The position numbers and the translations under genes are program-made. From Candidatus Omnitrophota bacterium (lineage in GTDB: Bacteria > Omnitrophota > Koll11 > Duberdicusellales > 4484-171), in NCBI GenBank assembly GCA_030692055.1, contig JAUYCY010000172.1:1-13587 (forward strand): DNA of 13,587 bases. The letters run 5' to 3'. The notes beneath the pieces were generated by a model. The model had not been told where the DNA came from. It made no database searches and saw nothing but the letters and a program-made list of their open reading frames with translations. Positions within the stretch are counted from its first letter, which is position 1. Each line of letters begins with the position of its first letter. This document shows positions 1,274 through 13,118 of the stretch, one piece after another.

Positions 1274-3682
1274 TTAATCTTTCCAATCAATCTGAAGCTG
1301 ACCACATTTACATGATATTTTGTCCTGACCAGGCACCTTTAAACTTTTCTGCACTGTTTCACCTTTTACACATATAAAAAGTCCTTGAAATTTTCTGATT
1401 TTTTCAATAGTTTCTTCTAAGTCCGCTTTTGAATCCAAGTCTGGATTATCGTGAGATTCTGAATTCGCAATAAAACTTGATACTTCAAGTGATTTGTAAT
1501 CATGATGAGACGGTATGGGTGACTTCTTTTTATTGAGGGTCGCAGTAAGGGCAGGAAATAATTCTCCTATCATCCGTTTTTCATTATCTTCATCTAGCTT
1601 AAACGGTAAGCGCACTTCAAGAGCTAAACATAGATGCTTTAATAGATTTTCCATACCAATCCTTAAATCATTACCTACTTTTTCACCCGCTTCTAACTTA
1701 GTTTTAGCCTCTTTAAGCCAGTCGGAAGAATCATCTTTGAATCTTATTCCTTTTTCAAAACTCCAAGTTACTTCTTTTTTCACCCATTCTGGAAATTGCC
1801 GTTTTATCATTTCATACCAAAAACTCTCGTGCGTCAGTAATAAAACCTGATAATCTGAAAATTCTTTTTTCAAAAGCTCCAATAATCTTAATCTATATCT
1901 TCTATCAAAACTTATCAATACATCATCTAGAATAAAAAATCTGTTTACTCGATTAAATTTTTTTACAGCTGCAAGGAATAAGGCTATACCAAGACTATTC
2001 AACTGAGATTCGCTAAGGTATTTTTTGGGGGGAGATGCCTCATTTCCGTAAAAATCTAAATTAAACTCTATTCCTGCCTCACCTTTAATTTCTAGCTTTA
2101 CATCTTTAACCCTGTTTTTCTTATTTAAGAAATAGAAGTATTTATTTATATCTGTAGACATTAAATCCAAAACCGTTTTTAATGAATGATTTTGCAGTTG
2201 AAGCATCTGCTCATCAATATACTGCATGTCTGAGATTTGCTTTTCGAATAATCGAACTTCTTTTCTGTACTTAATTGTTTCCAGTGCAATATCTTTGCCT
2301 CTAAACAAAGCTTGAAATATACTTTGCTTTTCCTTCTCATCCTGAGTTATTGATAATTTATCAATCATTGATTGCAGCGTTGCATTGAGGGCTATTAATG
2401 ATTCGCTCGCTTTTTTACTGTCTTCGTCGATTTTTGTTGCATCCAACAAGCTCTGGCTTCTATTCTGGAAGGCTAGAGATAACTCCGAGGAAATATTTGG
2501 TAATGATAGCTTTAATGTCTGCAGAGTGTCTTTTAAGTACACTATTGTCTTTACATTTAGCAATTTTTCCAAATCATCCATTTCTCTTTCCAGCTGGGCC
2601 AGTGTAATCTTAATACGCGAGAGTTCTTCTTCAAGCGTTGTAAGATTAGCACGGGCACTCGAATATTTTTGGTATCTATCTACAACGCTTCGTAGCAATG
2701 CTTCACGATTTATGTCTTGTTCGCACAAAGGGCAATATTTTAAGCTAGAATCAGTTTTTATAATTTTTTCTGCATTTCGCAGAAAGTCACTTAAATTCAA
2801 TTTGCTCAAAACATCTTTGTTTTGAACTAATTCGTTAAATCTTTTTTGCCAATCGGTTAAAGCTTTACTTATTCTAATCTTTTTTTCCAAAGATACTACT
2901 TTAGCCTTAATATTCTCTAATTCGATTCTATCTTTGGTTTTCTGCTCATTCGGAATTAACTTAATCGCCTTTGCTATGGCTGTTTCTAAATCCCCGAGTG
3001 ATAAAATTTTTTCCTCATAACCAAGCTTTTTTAAAAGAGTGGAGCTTTTTTGAAACAAATCGTCAACGGTATTTACTATATCGCCATAAATATTTGACGC
3101 CATTAAGCCATCATTATTAGCTATTCTCTGTCGAATGTCAGATAAGTACGTGCTTCTTTCAAGGTCCCTTAAAGCACCTGCTATCGAATTTCTTACATTC
3201 ACAATATCTTCATAGCCAATGATTTTTGCGATTTCGTCCTTTTTTTGACCTTTGGGCTTTGCTAAAAACCACAATATTGAATGCTGGTTTAAATATAGCC
3301 TGTCGTAATAAGATTTATTTTCAATATAATCAATAAATTCGGTAGATTTATTTGACCACTCGCTTTTGCCTTTGTCTTTTTTGAATAATTTAGAAGCACT
3401 TAACTCTTTCTTACTAAAAACAATACTGACGATTGTTTCATCCTTAGCCGATGCGCCTAAATTAACAATATCTTCTTTTTCAACGCCTTCCCCGGTTAAC
3501 GCTGCAACAGAATCTCTATAAAACCATTCGATAGCCTGAGCAAATGTACTTTTTCCTTCACCATTAAAACCGAATAAAATACAACTTCTAAAATCAGTAC
3601 CGAAATCCAATTCGATTAACTCTCTTGCTCCTCGAAAATGCGCTAATGATAGTTTTCTTAATTTAATATCAGGGCTACTCAT
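1274..3682 (-). CDS. SMC/Rad50-like AAA ATPase with zinc hook, probable defence component
   Basis: The 802-residue protein has a split ATP-binding head. Residues 1-46 begin a RecF/Rad50-type fold (KLRKLSLAHFRGAR) with Walker A GFNGEGKST at 38-46. Two long helical arms (about 250-380 and 410-500) surround a CPLC motif at 317-320, which resembles a Rad50 zinc hook. The second half of the head follows: an ABC-signature-like YLSESQLNSLG at 555-565, Walker B FFILDD at 582-587 and a switch histidine in LLLTHES at 614-620. A further module (about 650-802) has a conserved-looking NSESHDNP segment (740-747) and ends in a CKCG pair; I cannot assign it. Such ATPases work with nucleases in several defence systems. 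Its start overlaps the end of the 60-residue gene by 8 bp and has GAGG ten bases upstream. Substrate and exact family are unknown. Confidence 0.85.
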   Translation of the reverse strand: MSSPDIKLRKLSLAHFRGARELIELDFGTDFRSCILFGFNGEGKSTFAQAIEWFYRDSVAALTGEGVEKEDIVNLGASAKDETIVSIVFSKKELSASKLFKKDKGKSEWSNKSTEFIDYIENKSYYDRLYLNQHSILWFLAKPKGQKKDEIAKIIGYEDIVNVRNSIAGALRDLERSTYLSDIRQRIANNDGLMASNIYGDIVNTVDDLFQKSSTLLKKLGYEEKILSLGDLETAIAKAIKLIPNEQKTKDRIELENIKAKVVSLEKKIRISKALTDWQKRFNELVQNKDVLSKLNLSDFLRNAEKIIKTDSSLKYCPLCEQDINREALLRSVVDRYQKYSSARANLTTLEEELSRIKITLAQLEREMDDLEKLLNVKTIVYLKDTLQTLKLSLPNISSELSLAFQNRSQSLLDATKIDEDSKKASESLIALNATLQSMIDKLSITQDEKEKQSIFQALFRGKDIALETIKYRKEVRLFEKQISDMQYIDEQMLQLQNHSLKTVLDLMSTDINKYFYFLNKKNRVKDVKLEIKGEAGIEFNLDFYGNEASPPKKYLSESQLNSLGIALFLAAVKKFNRVNRFFILDDVLISFDRRYRLRLLELLKKEFSDYQVLLLTHESFWYEMIKRQFPEWVKKEVTWSFEKGIRFKDDSSDWLKEAKTKLEAGEKVGNDLRIGMENLLKHLCLALEVRLPFKLDEDNEKRMIGELFPALTATLNKKKSPIPSHHDYKSLEVSSFIANSESHDNPDLDSKADLEETIEKIRKFQGLFICVKGETVQKSLKVPGQDKISCKCGQLQIDWKD

Positions 3683-3857
3683 TTACTTTTTTCCTCAAGT
3701 CGTCAAGCATACGAGATAAGCTTGTTTTGGTAAGCTTCTTTTGTTCCCATAAAACTAGTAACTGACTACGCAAGTCTTTGCTTATTTTGTCATCTGTGCT
3801 TAAATTTTTAAAATACTCATCTAAAATCTCCAAACCACTCTTTATTTCATCGCTCAT
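3675..3857 (-). CDS. 60-residue helical protein of the GIY-YIG/ATPase operon
   Basis: This small, charged, mostly helical protein is not one I recognise. Its ATG overlaps the TGA of the nuclease gene (ATGA at 3854-3857) and its 3' end overlaps the ATPase start by 8 bp. GGAG lies about ten bases before the start. The double overlap indicates translational coupling and supports a real gene. The segment LVLWEQKKLTKTSLSRMLDDL could form a short helix-turn-helix-like pair, so it might be a DNA-binding adaptor or a regulator, but this is speculation. A role as subunit or antidote of the neighbouring nuclease is equally possible. Confidence 0.7.
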   Translation of the reverse strand: MSDEIKSGLEILDEYFKNLSTDDKISKDLRSQLLVLWEQKKLTKTSLSRMLDDLRKKVNE

Positions 3858-4324
3858 GTTTTAGATTCTCCATAAAAATTCCAGTCAATATAAATTAAAT
3901 TTTTTAGCTTGGTTACTTTCCCAATAATAGAATCACCTCTTCTATTATTACATATTGGATAGGAACCGTAATTTTCTGCAAAGCTTTCCAGAAATAATGA
4001 TTCGATGGTTTGAATTTTTTCAGTTGGGAAAAAATGTTTTAAAAATTCCCAGTCCAAATATGTAAATTTAAGCTCCCACCTCTTTTTATACCCAAATATA
4101 CCTTTGTTATTTGAACGACCTGAAAAATGATTTTTTAATCTATTGCCAATACTATTTATCCTCGACTCACTCATTCCGATATAAATTAGCCTAGAGTTAT
4201 TAAAAGGATACGGAATCAATAATTCGTTGTGAAAAATGAAATAAAGCCCTGTTCTACCTGATAATGCCGTGAAGTTTCGAGTTTCAAAATCACGAACTAA
4301 ATCACGATTAAAACGAATAGTCAT
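3854..4324 (-). CDS. GIY-YIG nuclease-like protein
   Basis: The 156-residue protein carries the order of GIY-YIG catalytic elements: GLYFIF at 26-31 (first motif), LIYIG at 46-50 (second motif), R62 in the helix GNRLKNHF, E108 in TIESLFLESF and asparagines at 126-127 in YPICNNRRG. In this family these residues bind one metal ion and cut DNA, so the enzyme is probably active. The domain fills almost the whole protein; no separate specificity domain is visible, which suggests that partner proteins give it targeting. It is first in a three-gene overlapping operon with a small protein and an SMC-like ATPase. GAGG lies ten bases before the ATG. It could instead be a stand-alone homing-type nuclease, but the gene coupling argues for a defence complex. 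Confidence 0.8.
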   Translation of the reverse strand: MTIRFNRDLVRDFETRNFTALSGRTGLYFIFHNELLIPYPFNNSRLIYIGMSESRINSIGNRLKNHFSGRSNNKGIFGYKKRWELKFTYLDWEFLKHFFPTEKIQTIESLFLESFAENYGSYPICNNRRGDSIIGKVTKLKNLIYIDWNFYGESKT

Positions 4325-4536: not shown

Positions 4537-4755
4537 CTAGATTTGTGTTTTTTCATTTTCGCGGCGCTTCTCTATCTCTTCTATCCAGACTTCAATCGAT
4601 CTATCGATCCCAACGACAAAATCTTTCTTACAAGATTTGCAAGTGACGCGATGTCTTTCGCCATCGATGAAATCCCATTTACCTTTTTGATCGAGATCGC
4701 GGTATCTATAGCTGGCTTCACAATACGGACACATCAATTGATTTTCCCAATCCAT
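4537..4755 (-). CDS. small zinc-ribbon protein
   Basis: The 72-residue protein has two CxxC pairs, CPYC at 9-12 and CKSC at 39-42, about 26 residues apart, as in a zinc ribbon. A charged helix rich in E, K and R follows. Its start is 12 bp after the DpnI stop, so it is very likely in the same transcript. It does not resemble the DpnD protein of the pneumococcal DpnI locus as I remember it. The role is unknown: it could assist the restriction enzyme, regulate it, or be a phage-like ribbon protein acquired with it. Confidence 0.7.
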   Translation of the reverse strand: MDWENQLMCPYCEASYRYRDLDQKGKWDFIDGERHRVTCKSCKKDFVVGIDRSIEVWIEEIEKRRENEKTQI

Positions 4756-4767
4756 AACAGCTTAAGT

Positions 4768-5541
4768 TTATCTTATGCGGTAGCAACCTTTTCCGATAAA
4801 GTCCAAATATCCCCTATCTCTCAAAAACTGCAATTGCTGCCTAATTTTGTCTTTGATATGTTTATTGCCGGGGTGCTTGGAACTTAATTCGTCTTCAAAG
4901 CCATACATTTCTTGCAATGAAAATTCTTTTTTATTTAAACTATCTATGCAATTCATCACATCTAAAATCCATCCCTTAAGCTCGGCGTCTTTTGATTCCC
5001 GTAAAAATAATGTTTTGCGCCAACTTTGCAAAACGACTTCTTTCTTTTGAATCAGTCTATCCTTAATATAAAAAATCCTTCCGCTGGAAGGAATTTGATT
5101 CAATAAAATATTGCAACCAACCCAACCAGCGCGTTCGGCATCATTAGAAAGCGGTTTCCTTCTTTCAATAATTTGAGGGACAAAAAAGTGTTTGGGTATA
5201 ATAGAAAAATTAACGACTTCTAACTTACTAACTGCGTAATTGAGCAGAAAAAAACTTGGGTTACTTGTGCTTTGCAAACGCTCTATCATCGTTCGATAGG
5301 CTCCATCAACTATTTTAGCTCCAAACCTATCTCCTTTGCTTTTTAGCTCGAAGTCTTCACTGCACCTTGAACAATAGAAGTCGCCAACCGGCTTGTTACG
5401 TTTGTAGGGGCTCACAATATGCCCGCATCCCGGACAATATATATAAGAACCGACCCAATCTTCTGTTAAAACCCGTACTTTCTGTGACGGACTTTTATAT
5501 TGAGCCCCGAGCTTTCTATCAAACCCTAAGCACATACTCAT
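4768..5541 (-). CDS. dpnC: DpnI-type methyl-directed restriction endonuclease
   Basis: The 257-residue protein matches the DpnI family nearly end to end (DpnI is about 254 residues). Such enzymes cut GATC only when its adenine is methylated. The N-terminal PD-(D/E)xK domain has D54, E65 and K67 in DFYC...FELKSK, with zinc ligands C36, C39, C57 and C60 in CPGC and CSRC. RAGWVGCN near residue 137 matches a conserved DpnI segment. The C-terminal part (about 185-257, KIRQQLQFLRDRGYLDF) is the winged helix that also reads methylated DNA. All the key residues are present, so activity is likely. No partner methylase is needed, and none is in the window; host GATC should be unmethylated. The ATG overlaps the stop of a 50-residue gene (TAATG), showing coupling. 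Confidence 0.95.
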   Translation of the reverse strand: MSMCLGFDRKLGAQYKSPSQKVRVLTEDWVGSYIYCPGCGHIVSPYKRNKPVGDFYCSRCSEDFELKSKGDRFGAKIVDGAYRTMIERLQSTSNPSFFLLNYAVSKLEVVNFSIIPKHFFVPQIIERRKPLSNDAERAGWVGCNILLNQIPSSGRIFYIKDRLIQKKEVVLQSWRKTLFLRESKDAELKGWILDVMNCIDSLNKKEFSLQEMYGFEDELSSKHPGNKHIKDKIRQQLQFLRDRGYLDFIGKGCYRIR

Positions 5542-5693
5542 TAAGTCACCTGATACCCGATCCTTTTTGCCAGTCTTTTTAAAACAATAAAAATATGGTC
5601 TTTAGATGGTCCGGACTGGTAATGCTTTTCCTCATCTACCCACGTGTAATCTAAAAGAGCCTTGATGTCTTCTTTTTCTCGATTGGCTATCAT
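5541..5693 (-). CDS. 50-residue protein translationally coupled to DpnI
   Basis: A short open frame runs from ATG at 5693 to TAA at 5541-5543. The TAA shares one base with the DpnI start codon, so the ribosome could restart directly. The product is charged at first (MIANREKEDIKALLDYTW) and ends in a helix IFIVLKRLAKRIGYQV. I do not recognise a family. A weak GGA lies about ten bases upstream of the ATG. It is the first gene after the promoter and terminator module at 5703-5833, which makes a regulatory or leader role possible. The coupling and the protein-like composition favour a real gene. Confidence 0.65.
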   Translation of the reverse strand: MIANREKEDIKALLDYTWVDEEKHYQSGPSKDHIFIVLKRLAKRIGYQVT

Positions 5694-6062: not shown

Positions 6063-6767
6063 TTACATTGCTTTCAGCGATTCTAAATCATTTAGCATCT
6101 GATCATGAAATTCAAATAGATATTCTAATATTACATTTCCTTCCCATTTGCTTTCGATAAGATAACTTACCACCTCTTTGCAAAAACTGTCTATTGGCAA
6201 ATGCTGTCTATTACCTTCTCTAGCTGAAAGGTGAATATTCAAAATGTTTTCTTTGTAACCTTTAAGCAAGTCCCATATCTTTTTATCGTCGTGTATATGC
6301 GAAATATCAAGTGTCATCGGTAAATCTAATCTAACGATTTCGTCAGGAGTAAATACTCGTCTTTTGCCTTCAAAGGTTTCAATACAAAAAATAATTTTGT
6401 TTTTATATAAATCAGTAAAATACTTTAAGTTATCGATAGCCCTTGCCTGCACAACCTTGTCTTTATTTACGTTGTTGGGATGCAATGTAATAGTGCTTAC
6501 ACCAAGCAACTCTGCAAAATCTGCTATTTCTTTTGCCCAATCTCTAAATTTTTCATCTGTAATAGGCGCTTGGACAGCGTGTATGCTTAAAAGTTCCGTA
6601 CGAAAGGTTTTGATCTTGTCAGCTATTTCTTTCAAATGTACCCTGATGGGTTCATATATATTCCAGTAATAAGGCAGAGCTAACTCAACAGGTACCTTAA
6701 GATTTGAGAATCTTTCTTCTACCTGTTCGAGTCTATCGAACGATTGTCGAATCCCAAGCTTAATCAT
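6063..6767 (-). CDS. sugar-phosphate isomerase/epimerase-like TIM-barrel protein
   Basis: The 234-residue protein has the pattern of the xylose isomerase-like (AP-endonuclease 2) barrel. Likely metal and active-site residues stand at strand ends: H63 in LLSIHA, H96 in TITLHPN, E130 in FCIETFEG, D154 and H157 in TLDISHIHD, H179 in ILNIHLSAREG, H189 in RQHLP and E215 in VILEYL. Members isomerise or epimerise sugars or cut abasic DNA; the IHLSAREG and E-T-F motifs favour a sugar-type enzyme, but the substrate cannot be read from sequence. The protein is shorter than typical members (about 260-290). The start at 6767 follows AGGG by five bases. It lies at the right edge of the defence island and is probably unrelated to it. 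Confidence 0.8.
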   Translation of the reverse strand: MIKLGIRQSFDRLEQVEERFSNLKVPVELALPYYWNIYEPIRVHLKEIADKIKTFRTELLSIHAVQAPITDEKFRDWAKEIADFAELLGVSTITLHPNNVNKDKVVQARAIDNLKYFTDLYKNKIIFCIETFEGKRRVFTPDEIVRLDLPMTLDISHIHDDKKIWDLLKGYKENILNIHLSAREGNRQHLPIDSFCKEVVSYLIESKWEGNVILEYLFEFHDQMLNDLESLKAM

Positions 6768-7988: not shown

Positions 7989-8016
7989 AATATACTCCTC
8001 TCTATATAACTGTCAA
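7989..8016 (-). promoter_or_regulatory. sigma-70-like promoter of the second module
   Basis: On the minus strand TTGACA (8011-8016) and TATATT (7989-7994) are separated by 16 bp. The conserved stem starts about 19 bp after the -10, as in copy 1 (about 20 bp). Confidence 0.6.
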
Positions 8017-8078
8017 GGTAAAAATGAGATGCTGCAATTTATTCCATTCTCTTTAGCAAAATGACTATAACCCCATTT

Positions 8079-8804
8079 TTATTGCCCTGAGCGAGATAAG
8101 CGAGTCGAAGGGTTTATCTCATGTGAAAGAATAATCGCCTCAGCCACTTCTTTCATAGGAATGCGCTTATCCATGCTGGATTTTTGTATGAGTTTATAAG
8201 CTTCCTCTTCACCAACATTTTTTTCCTTCATTAGTATTCCTTTGGCCCGCTCTATTTTCTTTCTGGCTTCAAGTTCTCCCTGCACAATTTTTGTTTTCAC
8301 TAAGAGCTCGGTATTCTCAATAGCTACGGCTGCCTGATTCGCCACAATGCCTAAAAGCTCAATATTACTTTTAGTAAATTCGTAAGGAAAGGTTGTGTAG
8401 CAATTAATCACTCCGACGACCCTCTTTTTTACCATCATCGGGACGCTAAGCATAGAAACTAAGTTTTCTTTCTGCGCTAACTTTTTCTCTTTGTATCTAG
8501 CGTCTTCTAAAACGTTTGCAATAACAATCGGACTCTTTTCCTTTGCGACTAAGCCCACAATACCCTCGCCTACCCTTAGGCTTCTTTCTTTTAAATACTC
8601 TTGGCTCATTGCCTGGGTGGCGCGGATTTTTAAACTTTGCGTGGCTTCGTCAAGCAGCCACAAAGCGCAGATCTTGGCTTGCATCACATTAGCGGTTAAG
8701 GTAACGATGAGTTTGAGTACATCCTCAAGATAAAGGTCGCTGGTTATGGCTTTAGCGATTTTGCTTAAGGTGTCAACATAGGCTTTATAGGAAGTCTTTT
8801 TCAT
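8079..8804 (-). CDS. GAF-ANTAR RNA-binding antitermination regulator
   Basis: The 241-residue protein has a GAF domain (about 24-163; LRVGEGIVGLVAKEKSPIVI and LSVPMMVKKRVVGVINCY are typical) and a short connecting helix. An ANTAR domain (about 178-228) follows, with LEARKKIERAKGILMKEKN, EEEAYKLIQKSSMDKRIPMKEVAEAI. ANTAR domains bind paired stem-loops in nascent RNA and prevent termination, often at nitrogen-use genes; the GAF part probably senses a small ligand. The gene is divergent to the glutamine synthetase gene, so that gene or a linked nitrogen gene is a plausible target. The last ten residues (NPSTRLSRSGQ) come from an interspersed repeat that replaced the original end. There is no strong ribosome-binding site. 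Confidence 0.9.
   Translation of the reverse strand: MKKTSYKAYVDTLSKIAKAITSDLYLEDVLKLIVTLTANVMQAKICALWLLDEATQSLKIRATQAMSQEYLKERSLRVGEGIVGLVAKEKSPIVIANVLEDARYKEKKLAQKENLVSMLSVPMMVKKRVVGVINCYTTFPYEFTKSNIELLGIVANQAAVAIENTELLVKTKIVQGELEARKKIERAKGILMKEKNVGEEEAYKLIQKSSMDKRIPMKEVAEAIILSHEINPSTRLSRSGQ
8085..8112. repeat. short interspersed repeat inside the 3' end of the GAF-ANTAR gene
   Basis: CCCTGAGCGAG...CGAGTCGAAGGG has complementary ends (CCCT/AGGG) and the same CTGAGCGA and GTCGAAGG parts as the reverse complement of 7898-7925. It is translated in frame as PSTRLSRSGQ and leads to the stop at 8079. Confidence 0.7.
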
Positions 8805-8958
8805 GATATCTTTTTATATCTTGTTTAAAGCATCCTCATTGTAGCAAGATTTTAGATTAAATCAATCCTTTCGACCTGAAAAATTACCTAAATTATACGC
8901 TAAAAATGCTTATTTTTCAAGGTTTTTACCCCGAAACGAAAAAAATACAAAATTATAC

Positions 8959-8990
8959 TTGACAATTGTAAAGCAATGTTTTACAATTGT
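8959..8990 (+). promoter_or_regulatory. glnA promoter overlapping an inverted-repeat operator
   Basis: TTGACA (8959-8964) and TACAAT (8982-8987) with 17-bp spacing form a near-consensus sigma-70 promoter. The arms ACAATTGTAAA (8962-8972) and TTTACAATTGT (8980-8990) are a perfect 11-bp inverted repeat with a 7-bp spacer, covering -35 to -10. A protein bound there would block RNA polymerase. Transcription should start near 8994. Confidence 0.75.
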
Positions 8991-9010
8991 ATTGAAGAAA
9001 TGAGGATACA

Positions 9011-9025
9011 TTGACAATGGTAAAG
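9011..9025 (+). promoter_or_regulatory. third operator half-site in the glnA leader
   Basis: TTGACAATGGTAAAG differs from TTGACAATTGTAAAG at 8959-8973 in one base. The two are direct repeats 52 bp apart, about five turns of DNA helix. No -10 box lies at the right distance, so it is more likely an extra protein-binding site than a second promoter. Confidence 0.45.
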
Positions 9026-9029
9026 TGAA

Positions 9030-9084
9030 GCTCCGCGGCATTATAGCCATGACTTCTTCTATTTCCATGGTTTCACCGTGGAGC
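9030..9084 (+). promoter_or_regulatory. long hairpin in the glnA 5' leader
   Basis: GCTCCGCGG (9030-9038) and CCGTGGAGC (9076-9084) form a 9-bp stem with one G-U pair. Inside, CCATG/CATGG (9047-9051, 9066-9070) can pair, and CCATGG (9065-9070) can pair alternatively with CCGTGG (9076-9081). Two exclusive structures are thus possible, but no T-run follows, so a classical terminator is not seen. Confidence 0.5.
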
Positions 9085-9096
9085 GAAATCCTGAGC

Positions 9097-9115
9097 AGTC
9101 CGCCTTTGGCGGACT
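9097..9115. repeat. GGCGGA-type palindrome in the glnA leader
   Basis: AGTCCGCC-TTT-GGCGGACT is a perfect 8-bp hairpin 18 bp before the ribosome-binding site. Its core recurs twice within the glnA coding region at 10091-10126, so it is probably one member of a small palindrome family. Confidence 0.65.
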
Positions 9116-9145
9116 GTCGAATGGACAAATAATAAGGAGGTACCT

Positions 9146-10714
9146 ATGGAACAAGATTATTTAAGCCCAACAGAAGTAGCTAAGGTTTTAGGCATATCGC
9201 GCCAAGCAGTAATTGAGCGTATAAAACACGGCCATCTCTATGCTGAGCGGGTAGGAAACCGTTATATCATACCTAAAAATACGCTTACCGCAAAAGACGT
9301 ATCCTCCAAAGAAGAAACGCCTGATAGCGGCACTTTTACTGTCAACACAAAAGCAAAAAAAGAAGAAATCACGGCAAGTATCTTAGAAAGAGTGCGTAAG
9401 GGCGACATCAAAACCATACAGTTGTGGTTTGTGGATATTTTAGGAATATTAAAATGTATTTCTATAACTCCGGGGGAACTAAAAGATGTTTTGGGCCACG
9501 GTAAAGGCTTTGACGGCTCCTCGGTCACCGGTTTTGCCGAAGCGCAGGAATCCGATATTATCGCTATGCCGGATCCGGCAACTTTTAAGATACTGCCATG
9601 GACCAAAGAAACTACGCCTACTGCCCGGCTTTTTTGCGATATCTTAAACCCCGACCAAACCCCTTATGCCGGCGACCCGCGTTATGTTTTAAAAAGAGCG
9701 CTTGCGCGGGCAAAAAAGTTAGGTTTTACTTTCTATGTCGGGCCGGAATTGGAGTATTTTTATTTTAAATCCGACAAAAGCCCTGAAGTTATAGATGAAG
9801 GGTCATACTTTGAACTCATCCCTAATGATCTCGCCGACGCCATGCGCAATAAAACCGTAAGGGTTTTAGAAGAAATGGGCATAATTATAGAAGCAACACA
9901 TCACGAGGTTGCACCCAGCCAGCACGAAATTGACCCTAAATATAACGATGCTCTAACTATGGCCGATAACGTCATCACCAGCAAATACATAATCAAAGAA
10001 ATTGCCCAACAAAACGGGATTTATGCTACTTTTATGCCCAAGCCGCTTTTTGGCGTAAACGGCTCAGGTATGCATGTGCACCAATCATTGTTTTCCGCCA
10101 AAGGCGGATCCGCCTCAGGCGGAAAAGAAGACCGTAATGCTTTTTTTGAGAAAAAGGATAAACAGCACCTTTCCTCCACTGCTAGGCACTTTATTGCCGG
10201 GCAATTAATCCATGCGCGGGAAATTTGTTCTCTAACCGCGCAATGGGTAAATTCTTATAAAAGGCTAGTCCCCGGTTATGAAGCGCCGGTATATATTTCC
10301 TGGGCGCAAAGAAACCGCACCGCATTGCTACGGGTGCCGCTTTATCGGCCGGGAAATGAAAAGGCAACACGGGTAGAATTAAGATGCCCGGATCCGGCCT
10401 GCAACCCCTATTTGGCCTTTGCGGTAATGCTTACTGCCGGCTTAGAAGGAATCGAGAAAAAATATACGCTGATGCCGCCGGTTGAACCAAATCTCTATCA
10501 CATGGCTATGGAAGAACGCGAGAAGCGCGGCGTAGCGTCTTTACCGGGAAACCTCTTTGAGGCAATCTTAGAAACAGAAAAAAGTAAGTTTATAAAAGAA
10601 ACTTTAGGCGAGCATATATTCACGCGGTTTCTCTTTAACAAGAAAAAAGAATGGGAAGAATACCGTATCCAAATCACCCAGCACGAAATCAAGAAGTATC
10701 TTCCTCTGCTTTAG
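9146..10714 (+). CDS. glnA: type I glutamine synthetase with an N-terminal helix-turn-helix domain
   Basis: Makes glutamine from glutamate, ammonia and ATP. The 522 residues exceed the usual 440 or so because residues 1-50 form an excisionase/MerR-type DNA-binding domain (LSPTEVAKVLGISRQAVIERIKHGHLYAERVGNRYIIP), joined by a linker of about 22 residues. The synthetase part has FDGSSVTGF (122-130), VGPELEYF (198-205), VNGSGMHVHQSLF (304-316) and RVPLYRPGNEKATRVELRCPDP (396-417), all normal. NLYHMAMEEREKRG (449-462) resembles the GSI-alpha type rather than an adenylylation loop, though Y451 aligns. Residues 317-326 come from an inserted palindrome. AAGGAGG at 9134-9140 fixes the start; no start codon lies near the synthetase domain itself. 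It is divergent to the GAF-ANTAR gene and convergent to phoU. Confidence 0.95.
   Translation: MEQDYLSPTEVAKVLGISRQAVIERIKHGHLYAERVGNRYIIPKNTLTAKDVSSKEETPDSGTFTVNTKAKKEEITASILERVRKGDIKTIQLWFVDILGILKCISITPGELKDVLGHGKGFDGSSVTGFAEAQESDIIAMPDPATFKILPWTKETTPTARLFCDILNPDQTPYAGDPRYVLKRALARAKKLGFTFYVGPELEYFYFKSDKSPEVIDEGSYFELIPNDLADAMRNKTVRVLEEMGIIIEATHHEVAPSQHEIDPKYNDALTMADNVITSKYIIKEIAQQNGIYATFMPKPLFGVNGSGMHVHQSLFSAKGGSASGGKEDRNAFFEKKDKQHLSSTARHFIAGQLIHAREICSLTAQWVNSYKRLVPGYEAPVYISWAQRNRTALLRVPLYRPGNEKATRVELRCPDPACNPYLAFAVMLTAGLEGIEKKYTLMPPVEPNLYHMAMEEREKRGVASLPGNLFEAILETEKSKFIKETLGEHIFTRFLFNKKKEWEEYRIQITQHEIKKYLPLL
10091..10126. repeat. in-frame double palindrome inside glnA
   Basis: TTTTCCGCC-AAA-GGCGGA is followed directly by TCCGCC-TCA-GGCGGAAAA, so the whole 36 bp is a large palindrome apart from the two 3-bp loops. 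It encodes SAKGGSASGG between the normal SLF and RNAFF segments, where most type I enzymes have about four residues. Confidence 0.75.
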
Positions 10715-11594: not shown

Positions 11595-12350
11595 TTATCC
11601 ATATCTACCAGTAATATAATCCTCTGTCCGTTTATCTTTCGGCTTTGTAAATATATCATCGGTTTTAGCGAATTCAATTAGTTCGCCCAAAAGCATAAAG
11701 CCTGTATCATCAGACACACGCGCTGCCTGCTGCATATTATGCGTTACTATTATTATAGTATAATTTTTCTTAAGCTCACGCATTAATTCTTCAACCCTTG
11801 CGGTTGCCTGCGGGTCCAGAGCTGAACAAGGTTCATCCATAAGCAGCACCTCTGGTTTTACTGCAATAAGCCTGGCTATGCAAAGTCTCTGCTTCTGCTC
11901 CAGTGATAACCTCAGGGCCGGTTCATTTAGTCTATCTTTTAATTCATCCCACAAAAGAACATCTCTTAGGCTTCTCTCAACAATTTCATCTAACTTATCT
12001 CTTGTTGTGCCATCCGCGTGAACCTTCTCCCCAAAAACGATATTTTCATAAATTGATAGCGGAAAAGGATTGGGCCTCTGAAATACCATCCCTACCTTTT
12101 TACGTAAAACTACTAAATCTGTGTTGGAATTTAGAATATTAGTATCGTCAATTAAAACTTCTCCCTCCGTACGCACGCCTTCAATCAAGTCATTCATGCG
12201 GTTAAAAACTCTAAGCAAAGTAGATTTACCACACCCTGAGGGCCCGATTATGGCGGTAATCTTCTTTTCGCTGAATAAAGCATTAATATCTTTTAATGCC
12301 TGAAAATTTCCGTACCATAGATTAAGATCTTTAACTATTATCTTTGACAT
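11595..12350 (-). CDS. pstB: phosphate ABC transporter ATPase PstB with degenerate signature motif
   Basis: The 251-residue cytoplasmic ATPase of the high-affinity phosphate importer Pst. Walker [10 protein letters not shown] (36-44), Q91 in [16 protein letters not shown], Walker B VLLMDE (168-173), D-loop SALDP and switch H204 in [14 protein letters not shown] are all standard for PstB. The ABC signature, normally LSGGQ, is LSLEQ at 148-152, followed by KQRLCIAR: both glycines are gone. The start is 21 bp after the preceding pstB. Read with that gene, whose Q-loop and H-loop are altered, this looks like one half of a heterodimer. It carries the intact catalytic residues but gives a poor signature to the partner. 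A sequencing error is unlikely to explain two neighbouring substitutions in an otherwise open frame. Confidence 0.93.
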
Positions 12351-12371
12351 TTTATTACGCTATGCGATATT

Positions 12372-13118
12372 TTATCCGAATTTTCCTCTAATATAACCGT
12401 CCGTGCGTTTATCGTGTGGCGCGGTAAAAATCTTGTCTGTTTTGTCCAACTCAATAAGTTCACCATTTAAAAAGAAAGCTGTCATATCGCCAACCCTAGC
12501 CGCCTGTTTTACATTGTTAGTCACCAAAACTATTGTATATTTTTGTTTTAACTTAACCATAGCGTCTTCTACTTTTGCGGTGGATATAGGGTCCAGCCCT
12601 GAACAGGGCTCATCAAATAAAATTACCTCTGGTTGGACTGCGAGGGTTCTCGCTATGCACAGACGCTGCTGTTGACCTCCAGATAATTTAAAAGCGGATT
12701 CATTCAATCTATCCTTTACCTCCTCCCAAAGATATGCTTCTTTCAAAGACCCCTCTACTTTATTTGCCAAAATCTTCTTATTTTTTGTGCCATGCATCCT
12801 TACGCCATAAGCCACATTATCAAAAATAGATAGTGGAAGCGGCAGCGGTAATGCGAATACCATACCTACTCGCTTGCGCAATAATTCCATATCAATATTT
12901 TTGATATCTTCGTTTTCAAGCTTTACCGCTCCATTCATTCTAAAAGTCTGGTTAAGATCGTTTAAACGATTAAGCATCCTTAAGAAAGTCGTCTTACCGC
13001 TGTTTGAGGGCCCAATCACGCTTAAAATTTCATTAGCCTCTACCCCCATACTTACCTGCTTTAGGGCATGCACGGGACCGAACCATATATTTAAATCGCG
13101 TATCTCGAATTTCACCAT
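12372..13118 (-). CDS. pstB: second PstB-type ATPase with altered Q-loop and H-loop
   Basis: The 248-residue paralogue of the neighbouring PstB. Walker A is GPSNSGKTT (36-44), the signature LSGGQ (145-149) is intact, and Walker B is VILFDE (165-170). But the Q-loop glutamine is replaced by A89 ([14 protein letters not shown] instead of VFQRPNPFP), and the switch histidine by N201 ([14 protein letters not shown]). In ABC ATPases the Q-loop couples to the membrane subunit and the histidine is needed for hydrolysis. The protein probably binds ATP without efficient turnover and supplies a good signature to its partner. Its ATG overlaps the pstA stop by 7 bp, so it is translated directly after the permease. 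Both copies share PstB-specific flanks such as [15 protein letters not shown] and DKRT-YI-G, so they arose by duplication within the family. Confidence 0.92.

Follow-up and report, generated by a model that had tools for sequence, protein, structure and literature searches.

We analysed a 13,587-nucleotide contig from a Candidatus Omnitrophota bacterium (JAUYCY010000172.1, hereafter the window), in which an overlapping operon of a GIY-YIG nuclease, a 60-residue protein and a zinc-hook SMC-like ATPase had been predicted from the letters alone as a candidate defence system. The three genes, hereafter the trio, are as follows:

3854-4324, minus strand: GIY-YIG nuclease gene, an open reading frame (ORF) of 156 residues
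3675-3857, minus strand: small helper gene, an ORF of 60 residues
1274-3682, minus strand: ATPase gene of 802 residues, a Rad50/SMC/RloC-like ATP-binding cassette (ABC) protein with a zinc hook, a HEPN/anticodon-nuclease-like C-terminal domain and a zinc ribbon

All three genes lie on the minus strand, and the ORF coordinates bear out the predicted overlaps of 4 bp between the GIY-YIG and 60-residue genes and 8 bp between the 60-residue and ATPase genes. Searches of the window found no tRNA and no Rfam families; promoter-like sites occurred only at chance level, and no terminator-like site was found.

The GIY-YIG, 60-residue and ATPase genes are inherited together across phyla. A scan centred on the ATPase, in which each species was represented by a single genome, yielded 153 relatives, and the counts refer to the 80 best loci; more distant members are therefore under-represented, and a set of loci chosen by their ATPase would miss GIY-YIG or 60-residue genes that live without it. 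A relative of the 60-residue gene was located directly upstream of the ATPase gene in 78 of the 80 loci, the two misses (L078 and L080) being cut by a contig end, and a GIY-YIG gene of the same family adjoined in 71 of 80, or in 71 of the 77 loci with enough flanking sequence. The nine loci without it comprise three that are cut (L070, L078 and L080) and six with enough flank (L011, L013, L014, L046, L061 and L062), and the ATPase and the 60-residue gene hence occur as a pair without an intact GIY-YIG gene in 6 of 77 loci. A short GIY-YIG remnant was observed at 7681-7772 of L046, ahead of the open 60-residue/ATPase pair. No GIY-YIG gene was found elsewhere in the genomes of L011, L013, L014, L046 and L061, some of which are small metagenome bins, in a search run without a positive control, the same profile having matched in G003 (Maribacter algarum) elsewhere. 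The GIY-YIG gene lay on the same strand ahead of the pair in 57 loci and was divergent yet adjacent in 14 of 71 (by name 12 alphaproteobacterial, one Desulfobacterales and one Planctomycetota), with a gap of 15-103 bp in the 12 divergent loci with non-overlapping called starts. Across the 71 trios, window included, Mantel r values were 0.86 for ATPase/GIY-YIG, 0.87 for ATPase/60-residue protein and 0.85 for GIY-YIG/60-residue protein, against maxima of 0.17, 0.20 and 0.23, respectively, in 2000 permutations each. A chance neighbourhood is thus ruled out by the conservation over 80 loci, the adjacency despite inversion and the congruent distances: the trio is more than a coincidence because its homologues stay side by side in many phyla, and the original prediction, which was to fall if the three genes were not found together in other genomes, withstood that comparison.

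By their record titles, the loci derive from Bacteroidota, Alphaproteobacteria, Desulfobacterota, Planctomycetota, Nitrospirota, Chloroflexota and others, with further representatives in Bacillota, Cloacimonadota, Patescibacteria, Aminicenantes and Melainabacteria (we assigned some of these from presumed taxonomy); archaeal names were also present among the GIY-YIG homologues. Genome-wide searches, which scored few candidates per genome (two for the ATPase and at most nine for the GIY-YIG protein), showed how sparse the genes are within single lineages. Amongst 395 genomes from the class of M. algarum, the ATPase was matched at 1e-60 in two (the seed itself and a distant stand-alone copy) and the GIY-YIG protein in one, M. 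algarum itself. An ATPase relative was found at 1e-40 in 5 of 294 genomes from the class of the L014 genome, that genome included, and in 1 of 279 from the phylum of the L011 genome, namely its own.

The GIY-YIG protein carries both half-motifs, the catalytic Arg and Glu and a later Asn, with no variation at any of these positions in 55 aligned relatives:

4241-4249, minus strand: G26-L-Y28
4175-4183, minus strand: Y48-I-G50
4139-4141, minus strand: R62
4001-4003, minus strand: E108
3947-3949, minus strand: N126

Its match to Pfam PF01541 (GIY-YIG) is sub-threshold (E-value 0.002, 18.8 versus a cut-off of 22.6 bits), as is that to PF20815 (E-value 0.0045), which matches 5 of the 55 relatives at E-value 0.001 (best 0.0003). 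The AlphaFold2 model of the 156 residues is a single compact fold with a mean predicted local distance difference test score of 92.7 and no second domain was seen, whilst Foldseek returned no match to solved structures at E-value 0.001. PADLOC LmuA was not found among the 55 relatives at E-value 0.01, and assignment to a known PADLOC system through this protein was rejected, the hits to PDC-M57B (2 of 55, best 0.003) and UzuA (1 of 55, best 0.007) being too weak.

The 60-residue family follows the consensus IKSGKEILDxFF...VD...LYxxxKLTxTN...LR (alignment of 43 sequences), and its members are mostly 58-83 residues long by called ORFs. Of the 81 sequences, window included, 58 served as seeds for the family profile, chosen by their position and a motif pattern, and therefore match by construction; a further 21 matches are independent of the seeding, with a worst E-value of 3.8e-7. 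Against the Protein Data Bank (PDB), the profile's best hit was 1irz, a plant response-regulator DNA-binding domain (E-value 0.003), followed by 2dbb, a transcription-regulator chain (E-value 0.014), both of which may be chance. LmuC and DndE were considered as identities and gained no support: neither chain appears among the PDB matches at E-value 5, and the window protein did not match PADLOC LmuC at E-value 1.

The ATPase was aligned with its relatives in a set of 140 full-length sequences (138 distinct, the window sequence being counted twice). All the motifs that had originally been named in it and in the GIY-YIG protein were recovered and are conserved in the aligned relatives, with the following counts out of 140 for the ATPase, in which T617 is also kept in 140 of 140:

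3548-3571, minus strand: Walker A, residues G38-S45; G38, G43 and K44 in 140
2723-2734, minus strand: zinc hook CPLC, residues 317-320; C317, P318 and C320 in 140
2003-2017, minus strand: ABC signature LSESQ, residues 556-560; E558 in 140, S557 in 139
1922-1936, minus strand: Walker B/D-loop, ending in D586-D587; both in 140
1829-1831, minus strand: switch histidine H618; in 139
1649-1663, minus strand: R674-x3-E678, proposed first part of an RNase triad; R674 in 139, E678 in 140; aligned by hhalign with RRxxE of PF13166
1451-1465, minus strand: N740-x-x-S743-H744, proposed end of the triad; H744 in 140, S743 in 134, N740 in 94
1370-1372, minus strand: zinc-ribbon C771; in 138
1301-1312, minus strand: zinc-ribbon C791-K-C793-G794; C791 in 135, C793 in 131

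Residues 655-766 are helical in the predicted model and the zinc ribbon (C771, C791 and C793) comes next. The putative triad R674/E678/H744 is conserved as strictly as the Walker residues, and its arrangement recalls RloC, an ABC ATPase with a CXXC zinc hook and an R-X3-E-X36-52-H motif, often with Ser before His, whose triad mutants lose anticodon-nuclease activity (PMC2610378). The RNase domains of PrrC and RloC belong to the HEPN superfamily (PMC3710099). When residues 621-770 were aligned by hhalign with the C-termini of 16 PF13166 (AAA_13; RloC/PrrC) proteins, the score was 32.7 (probability 52.8) against a best of 23.6 in 100 column shuffles, and the alignment, unsupervised and at residues outside the ATPase core, superposed R674xxxE678 on RRxxE and S743H744 on SH. 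This version left out L092, L095 and L133 as near-identical, L122 for want of an LTH anchor, and L093, L097 and L098, which the P-loop pattern missed; it supersedes one with few and redundant PF13166 sequences, rejected since mostly the ATPase part was aligned. Of six relatives scanned against PF13166, picked partly because four carried a precomputed label for that family, one scored above the cut-off (P0043, 42.4 versus 36), three below it and two were unlisted; a Notoacmeibacter copy reached 36.3 in a genome search, just over the cut-off, although hmmscan of the same protein (P0058) listed no match. PADLOC PrrC matched 6 of 37 members of the ATPase family (best 1.3e-5). The C-terminal domain resembles that of RloC/PrrC around the RNase triad, and the equivalence of the triad columns depends on the alignment, whose moderate support stops short of proving the link. 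A stand-alone distant ATPase of 779 residues was observed at 7997-10336 (minus strand) of L136, with a CPAC hook, R-x3-D (RKIMD) in the R-x3-E region, GSH and a C-terminal zinc ribbon, and is a possible link between the trio's ATPase family and RloC.

The surroundings of the trio agree with the defence-island setting that had been proposed from its proximity to DpnI, both in the window, where DpnI adjoins the trio, and in the homologues, whose flanks are rich in defence genes:

4768-5541, minus strand: DpnI, 257 residues, both Pfam domains (Pfam DpnI 4e-74)

The DpnI locus as a whole (4537-5693, minus strand) also holds a 72-residue zinc-ribbon-like ORF and a 50-residue ORF that overlaps the DpnI start by 1 bp. 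Counted as PADLOC models rather than as proteins, 347 were matched by the 125 nearest neighbours in the homologous loci and 195 by 95 genes more than 5 kb away, versus 34 by 119 control genes from elsewhere in some of the same genomes; the flanks are therefore defence-rich out to the edge of the fetched sequence, beyond the trio's own neighbours. The 125 were scanned out of 137 (omitting five of 1259-2010 residues, six of 925-1143 and one of 188), and the control comprised the first genes, at most eight and each under 1000 residues, from each of 16 stretches in nine genomes. Twenty-five models were listed per gene set. The nearest neighbours included Type III methyltransferases (4 of 125), Shedu (4), OLD/Gabija/AriA-type ATPases (at most 5), DUF3375 (2), Fic (2), and ApeA and a PLD-type protein in single cases, and the control included mad3 (3 proteins), PDC-S02 and SoFic. 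We take DUF3375 to be Wadjet JetA.

Two further contexts bear on how the pair and the trio travel. At 5737-12948 of L014, one of the loci without a GIY-YIG gene, the order is an N6_N4 methylase (mod-like) gene, which overlaps the 60-residue gene by 8 bp, then the 60-residue gene, the ATPase gene and a ResIII helicase (res-like) gene, so that the pair sits inside what, judged by its genes, is a Type III-like restriction locus. A short ORF ahead of the pair in L011 presumably corresponds to the end of a DNA-specificity domain, and the more distant, shortened ATPase of L160 adjoins what we take to be a look-alike of a type I restriction subunit; L013, L046 and L061 are without a restriction-type partner. 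In plasmid records the ATPase was matched in three, two of them at 21% identity, and the GIY-YIG protein in one, an Aliiroseovarius plasmid (L153) on which the trio, annotated as 'GIY-YIG nuclease family protein', 'hypothetical protein' and 'AAA family ATPase', has TniQ, TniB and Mu-type transposase genes as its immediate neighbours (8309-14980), which suggests carriage by a Tn7-like element.

Elsewhere in the window, a xylose-isomerase-like TIM-barrel gene lies at 6063-6767 on the minus strand (Pfam 2.5e-10); its product also matches CbiR, an enzyme that remodels cobamides, but below the cut-off (6.5e-13, 48.8 bits versus 105). By eye, the region 8079-10714 holds a GAF protein with an ANTAR-like end (8079-8804, minus strand), divergent from a glutamine synthetase whose N-terminus is extended by a helix-turn-helix-like segment (9146-10714, plus strand), and 11595-13118 (minus strand) encodes two tandem PstB-like ATPases, the first with the unusual signature LSLEQKQR and the second with LSGGQQQR.

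We infer that the trio very probably serves defence of some kind. We propose that the operon acts against invaders, most likely phages, through two nuclease activities, a mechanism whose chances, taken as a whole, we judge to be evenly balanced. Two ATPases would pair via their zinc hooks and scan DNA for ends or breaks, in which respect the RloC of A. baylyi reacts to double-strand breaks (PMC12707154), whilst the GIY-YIG enzyme would cut DNA, by analogy with the linked type I restriction enzyme that keeps PrrC silent (PMC2610378). Once breaks are sensed, or the DNA-cutting arm is overwhelmed, an ATP-dependent change in the head would free the HEPN/RloC-like domain, which would then cut RNA, probably in the tRNA anticodon loop, and translation would stop. 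The 60-residue protein, whose gene comes immediately ahead of the ATPase gene with or without a GIY-YIG gene, would be an adaptor of the ATPase or hold it back. The original prediction had the ATPase sense foreign DNA or its ends and license the nuclease; the sensing part is retained in our proposal, but a role limited to sensing and licensing is not supported, given that the ATPase has an R-x3-E...SH domain of its own. Because of that domain, and because the pair occurs without an intact GIY-YIG gene in 6 of 77 loci, the GIY-YIG protein is probably not the sole effector.

Several observations weigh against the two-nuclease mechanism. The DNA-cutting activity of the GIY-YIG protein and its substrate are putative assignments from sequence, and the solved structure closest to its model is a weak Foldseek match, 2lwf (E-value 0.055, probability 0.87), which we take to be the N-terminal, GIY-YIG-like domain of a plant glutaredoxin. 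The window ATPase has no match to Pfam PF13166 at E-value 1. Alignments of its C-terminal domain with PF13166 subgroups of 5 and 10 sequences reached probabilities of 5% and 8% and covered R-x3-E only, not SH (none of 40 shuffles equalled either score), where the PF13166 subgroups themselves reach 90% against each other. With five distant cousins of the ATPase family the probabilities were 8% (equalled by none of 40 shuffles) and 1% (equalled by 1 of 40), the latter with only the H region aligned. The E-to-H spacing is 60-83 residues (median 65) in this family versus 36-52 in RloC, and the predicted model has low confidence at residues 694-702 and 741-746. Since the subgroup alignments are weak and the spacing is longer, we label the ATPase RloC-like rather than RloC. 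Foldseek/VIA with the whole ATPase listed no PrrC/RloC or HEPN chain among its matches, most of which cover residues 5-651, so that this result is silent on the C-terminal domain. Neither the 46 pattern matches in viral_contigs, none of which encodes an ATPase relative, nor the phage records, without an ATPase match at 1e-10, showed a direct link to phages, and the control for the defence context is crude. Beyond the 80 loci, five ATPase relatives were mixed: L161 holds a full trio, L158 a weak 60-residue-like ORF (E-value 0.0015) without a GIY-YIG gene, and L136, L160 and L162 neither partner; the trio therefore distinguishes one subgroup within a broader ATPase family.

A more specific form of the proposal, to which we give tentative credence somewhat short of even, is a double-barrelled system in which an RloC-type ATPase/anticodon nuclease, a regulator of about 60 residues and a separate GIY-YIG DNase share one DNA sensor. 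The ATPase-regulator pair would then be a portable suicide module for different DNA-cutting partners, which would be the GIY-YIG protein in most loci seen and the Type III-like system in L014.

The foremost rival to the two-nuclease mechanism, which we nonetheless consider doubtful, is a Lamassu/ABC-3C-like system in which the ATPase is a sensor only, the 60-residue protein a middle component and the GIY-YIG protein the sole effector, released or activated once foreign DNA is sensed, which is the model of the original prediction. Lamassu has the same make-up and the same position of the small gene, with an effector, a small middle protein and an SMC-like ATPase (PMC10586767). PADLOC LmuB matches the window ATPase at 1e-21, one LmuB model matches 37 of 37 family members at E-value 0.001, and the Lamassu LmuACB structure 9hqu is at rank 16 of the Foldseek listing for the ATPase. 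The match to the window protein, however, ends at residue 632, short of the conserved C-terminal domain, and is unspecific because the same 37 ATPases also match mad3 (36), PtuA (18), AbiLi (18) and AriA (17). Two PbeC models matched 12 (best 8e-6) and 10 (best 2e-7) of them. We read the overlapping matches to the LmuB, mad3, PtuA, AriA, AbiLi and PbeC models as generic ATPase similarity. No NCBIfam family was found for the window ATPase at E-value 1. The excerpt of PMC10586767 does not name GIY-YIG in its list of LmuA domains, the 156-residue protein has no second domain, and the pair's persistence without an intact GIY-YIG gene in 6 of 77 loci does not fit a sole effector.

We regard as improbable that the trio is a mobile complex for DNA repair or processing outside defence, with a Rad50/SbcC-like ATPase and a structure-selective GIY-YIG enzyme replacing Mre11, in view of its rare and patchy spread, defence-rich flanks, DpnI neighbour, plasmid/transposon copy and extra conserved C-terminal domain. 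Least probable of all, and in our view highly improbable, is that the trio belongs to, or branched off from, the DndD/CxC (PbeABCD-type) systems of ABC-ATPase and DndE with a GIY-YIG (URI) nuclease: their core does combine a small protein with a coiled-coil ATPase, which has a CxC hook in one clade, and their borders sometimes carry URI/GIY-YIG genes, in some cases on the other strand (PMC10853773), and PbeC models do match 12 and 10 of the 37 ATPases, but the hook here is C-P-x-C in 140 of 140 rather than C-x-C, the ATPase has no NCBIfam family at the threshold given and the 60-residue profile finds no DndE structure in the PDB at E-value 5.

The original statement that no characterised system is known with this make-up agrees with our searches. 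No PADLOC 2023 model describes the trio, the GIY-YIG partner receiving three weak matches in 55 proteins, and full-text literature searches found no description of it, although the 2020 Nucleic Acids Research classification of ABC-3C, which lies outside them, may mention it. Nor did the available excerpts of PMC10586767, PMC10952713, PMC2610378, PMC3710099, PMC9519451, PMC13190303, PMC13096335, PMC12707154 and PMC10853773 describe it. If true, the two-nuclease mechanism would unite two defence logics known separately, the activation of a partner enzyme by an ATPase of the SMC/Rad50 type, as in Lamassu and Septu, and the suicidal anticodon nuclease of the RloC/PrrC kind, and RloC-type ATPases would gain a constant small protein partner. 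The trio is compact, at roughly 3 kb, occurs in many bacterial phyla and has separable catalytic residues in two genes; it would thus make directly testable the long-standing question of how the zinc hook and ATPase of RloC recognise DNA and turn on an RNase.

Set against known systems, the trio shares with Septu (PtuAB) and PARIS (AriAB) a defence ATPase and a separate nuclease, and PtuA and AriA models match some of the relatives. The partner is the HNH protein PtuB in Septu and the Toprim protein AriB in PARIS, and we know of no ATPase from either that combines a zinc hook with an RloC-like domain. SNIPE, PD-T4-3 and PD-lambda-1 likewise use a GIY-YIG nuclease against phage (PMC13190303, PMC10952713), but SNIPE consists of one protein, anchored in the membrane and carrying DUF4041, and the excerpts of these papers mention no Rad50-like ATPase partner. 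The DndD/CxC and DndE systems differ in having a CxC hook (CxC clade) or none (DndD) where the trio has CPxC; their small partner DndE has two ribbon-helix-helix units. In Lamassu/ABC-3C, as far as the excerpts go, LmuA effectors carry a C-terminal docking domain behind a variable N-terminal enzyme domain, whereas here the GIY-YIG protein is without a docking domain, the ATPase has a catalytic-looking C-terminal domain of its own, and the searches gave no sequence link between LmuC and the 60-residue protein. With RloC/PrrC (PF13166) the ATPase shares the ABC head, the C-terminal R-x3-E...(S)H and, for RloC, the CxxC zinc hook, as well as an occasional place in restriction-modification loci (8 of 72 RloC genes lie in type I or III restriction loci, PMC2610378; L014 in this family). 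It differs from them in the lack of a PF13166 match for the window ATPase, in the longer E-to-H spacing (60-83 versus 36-52 residues), and in the constant partner of about 60 residues, the usual GIY-YIG partner and the extra C-terminal zinc ribbon that set the family apart.

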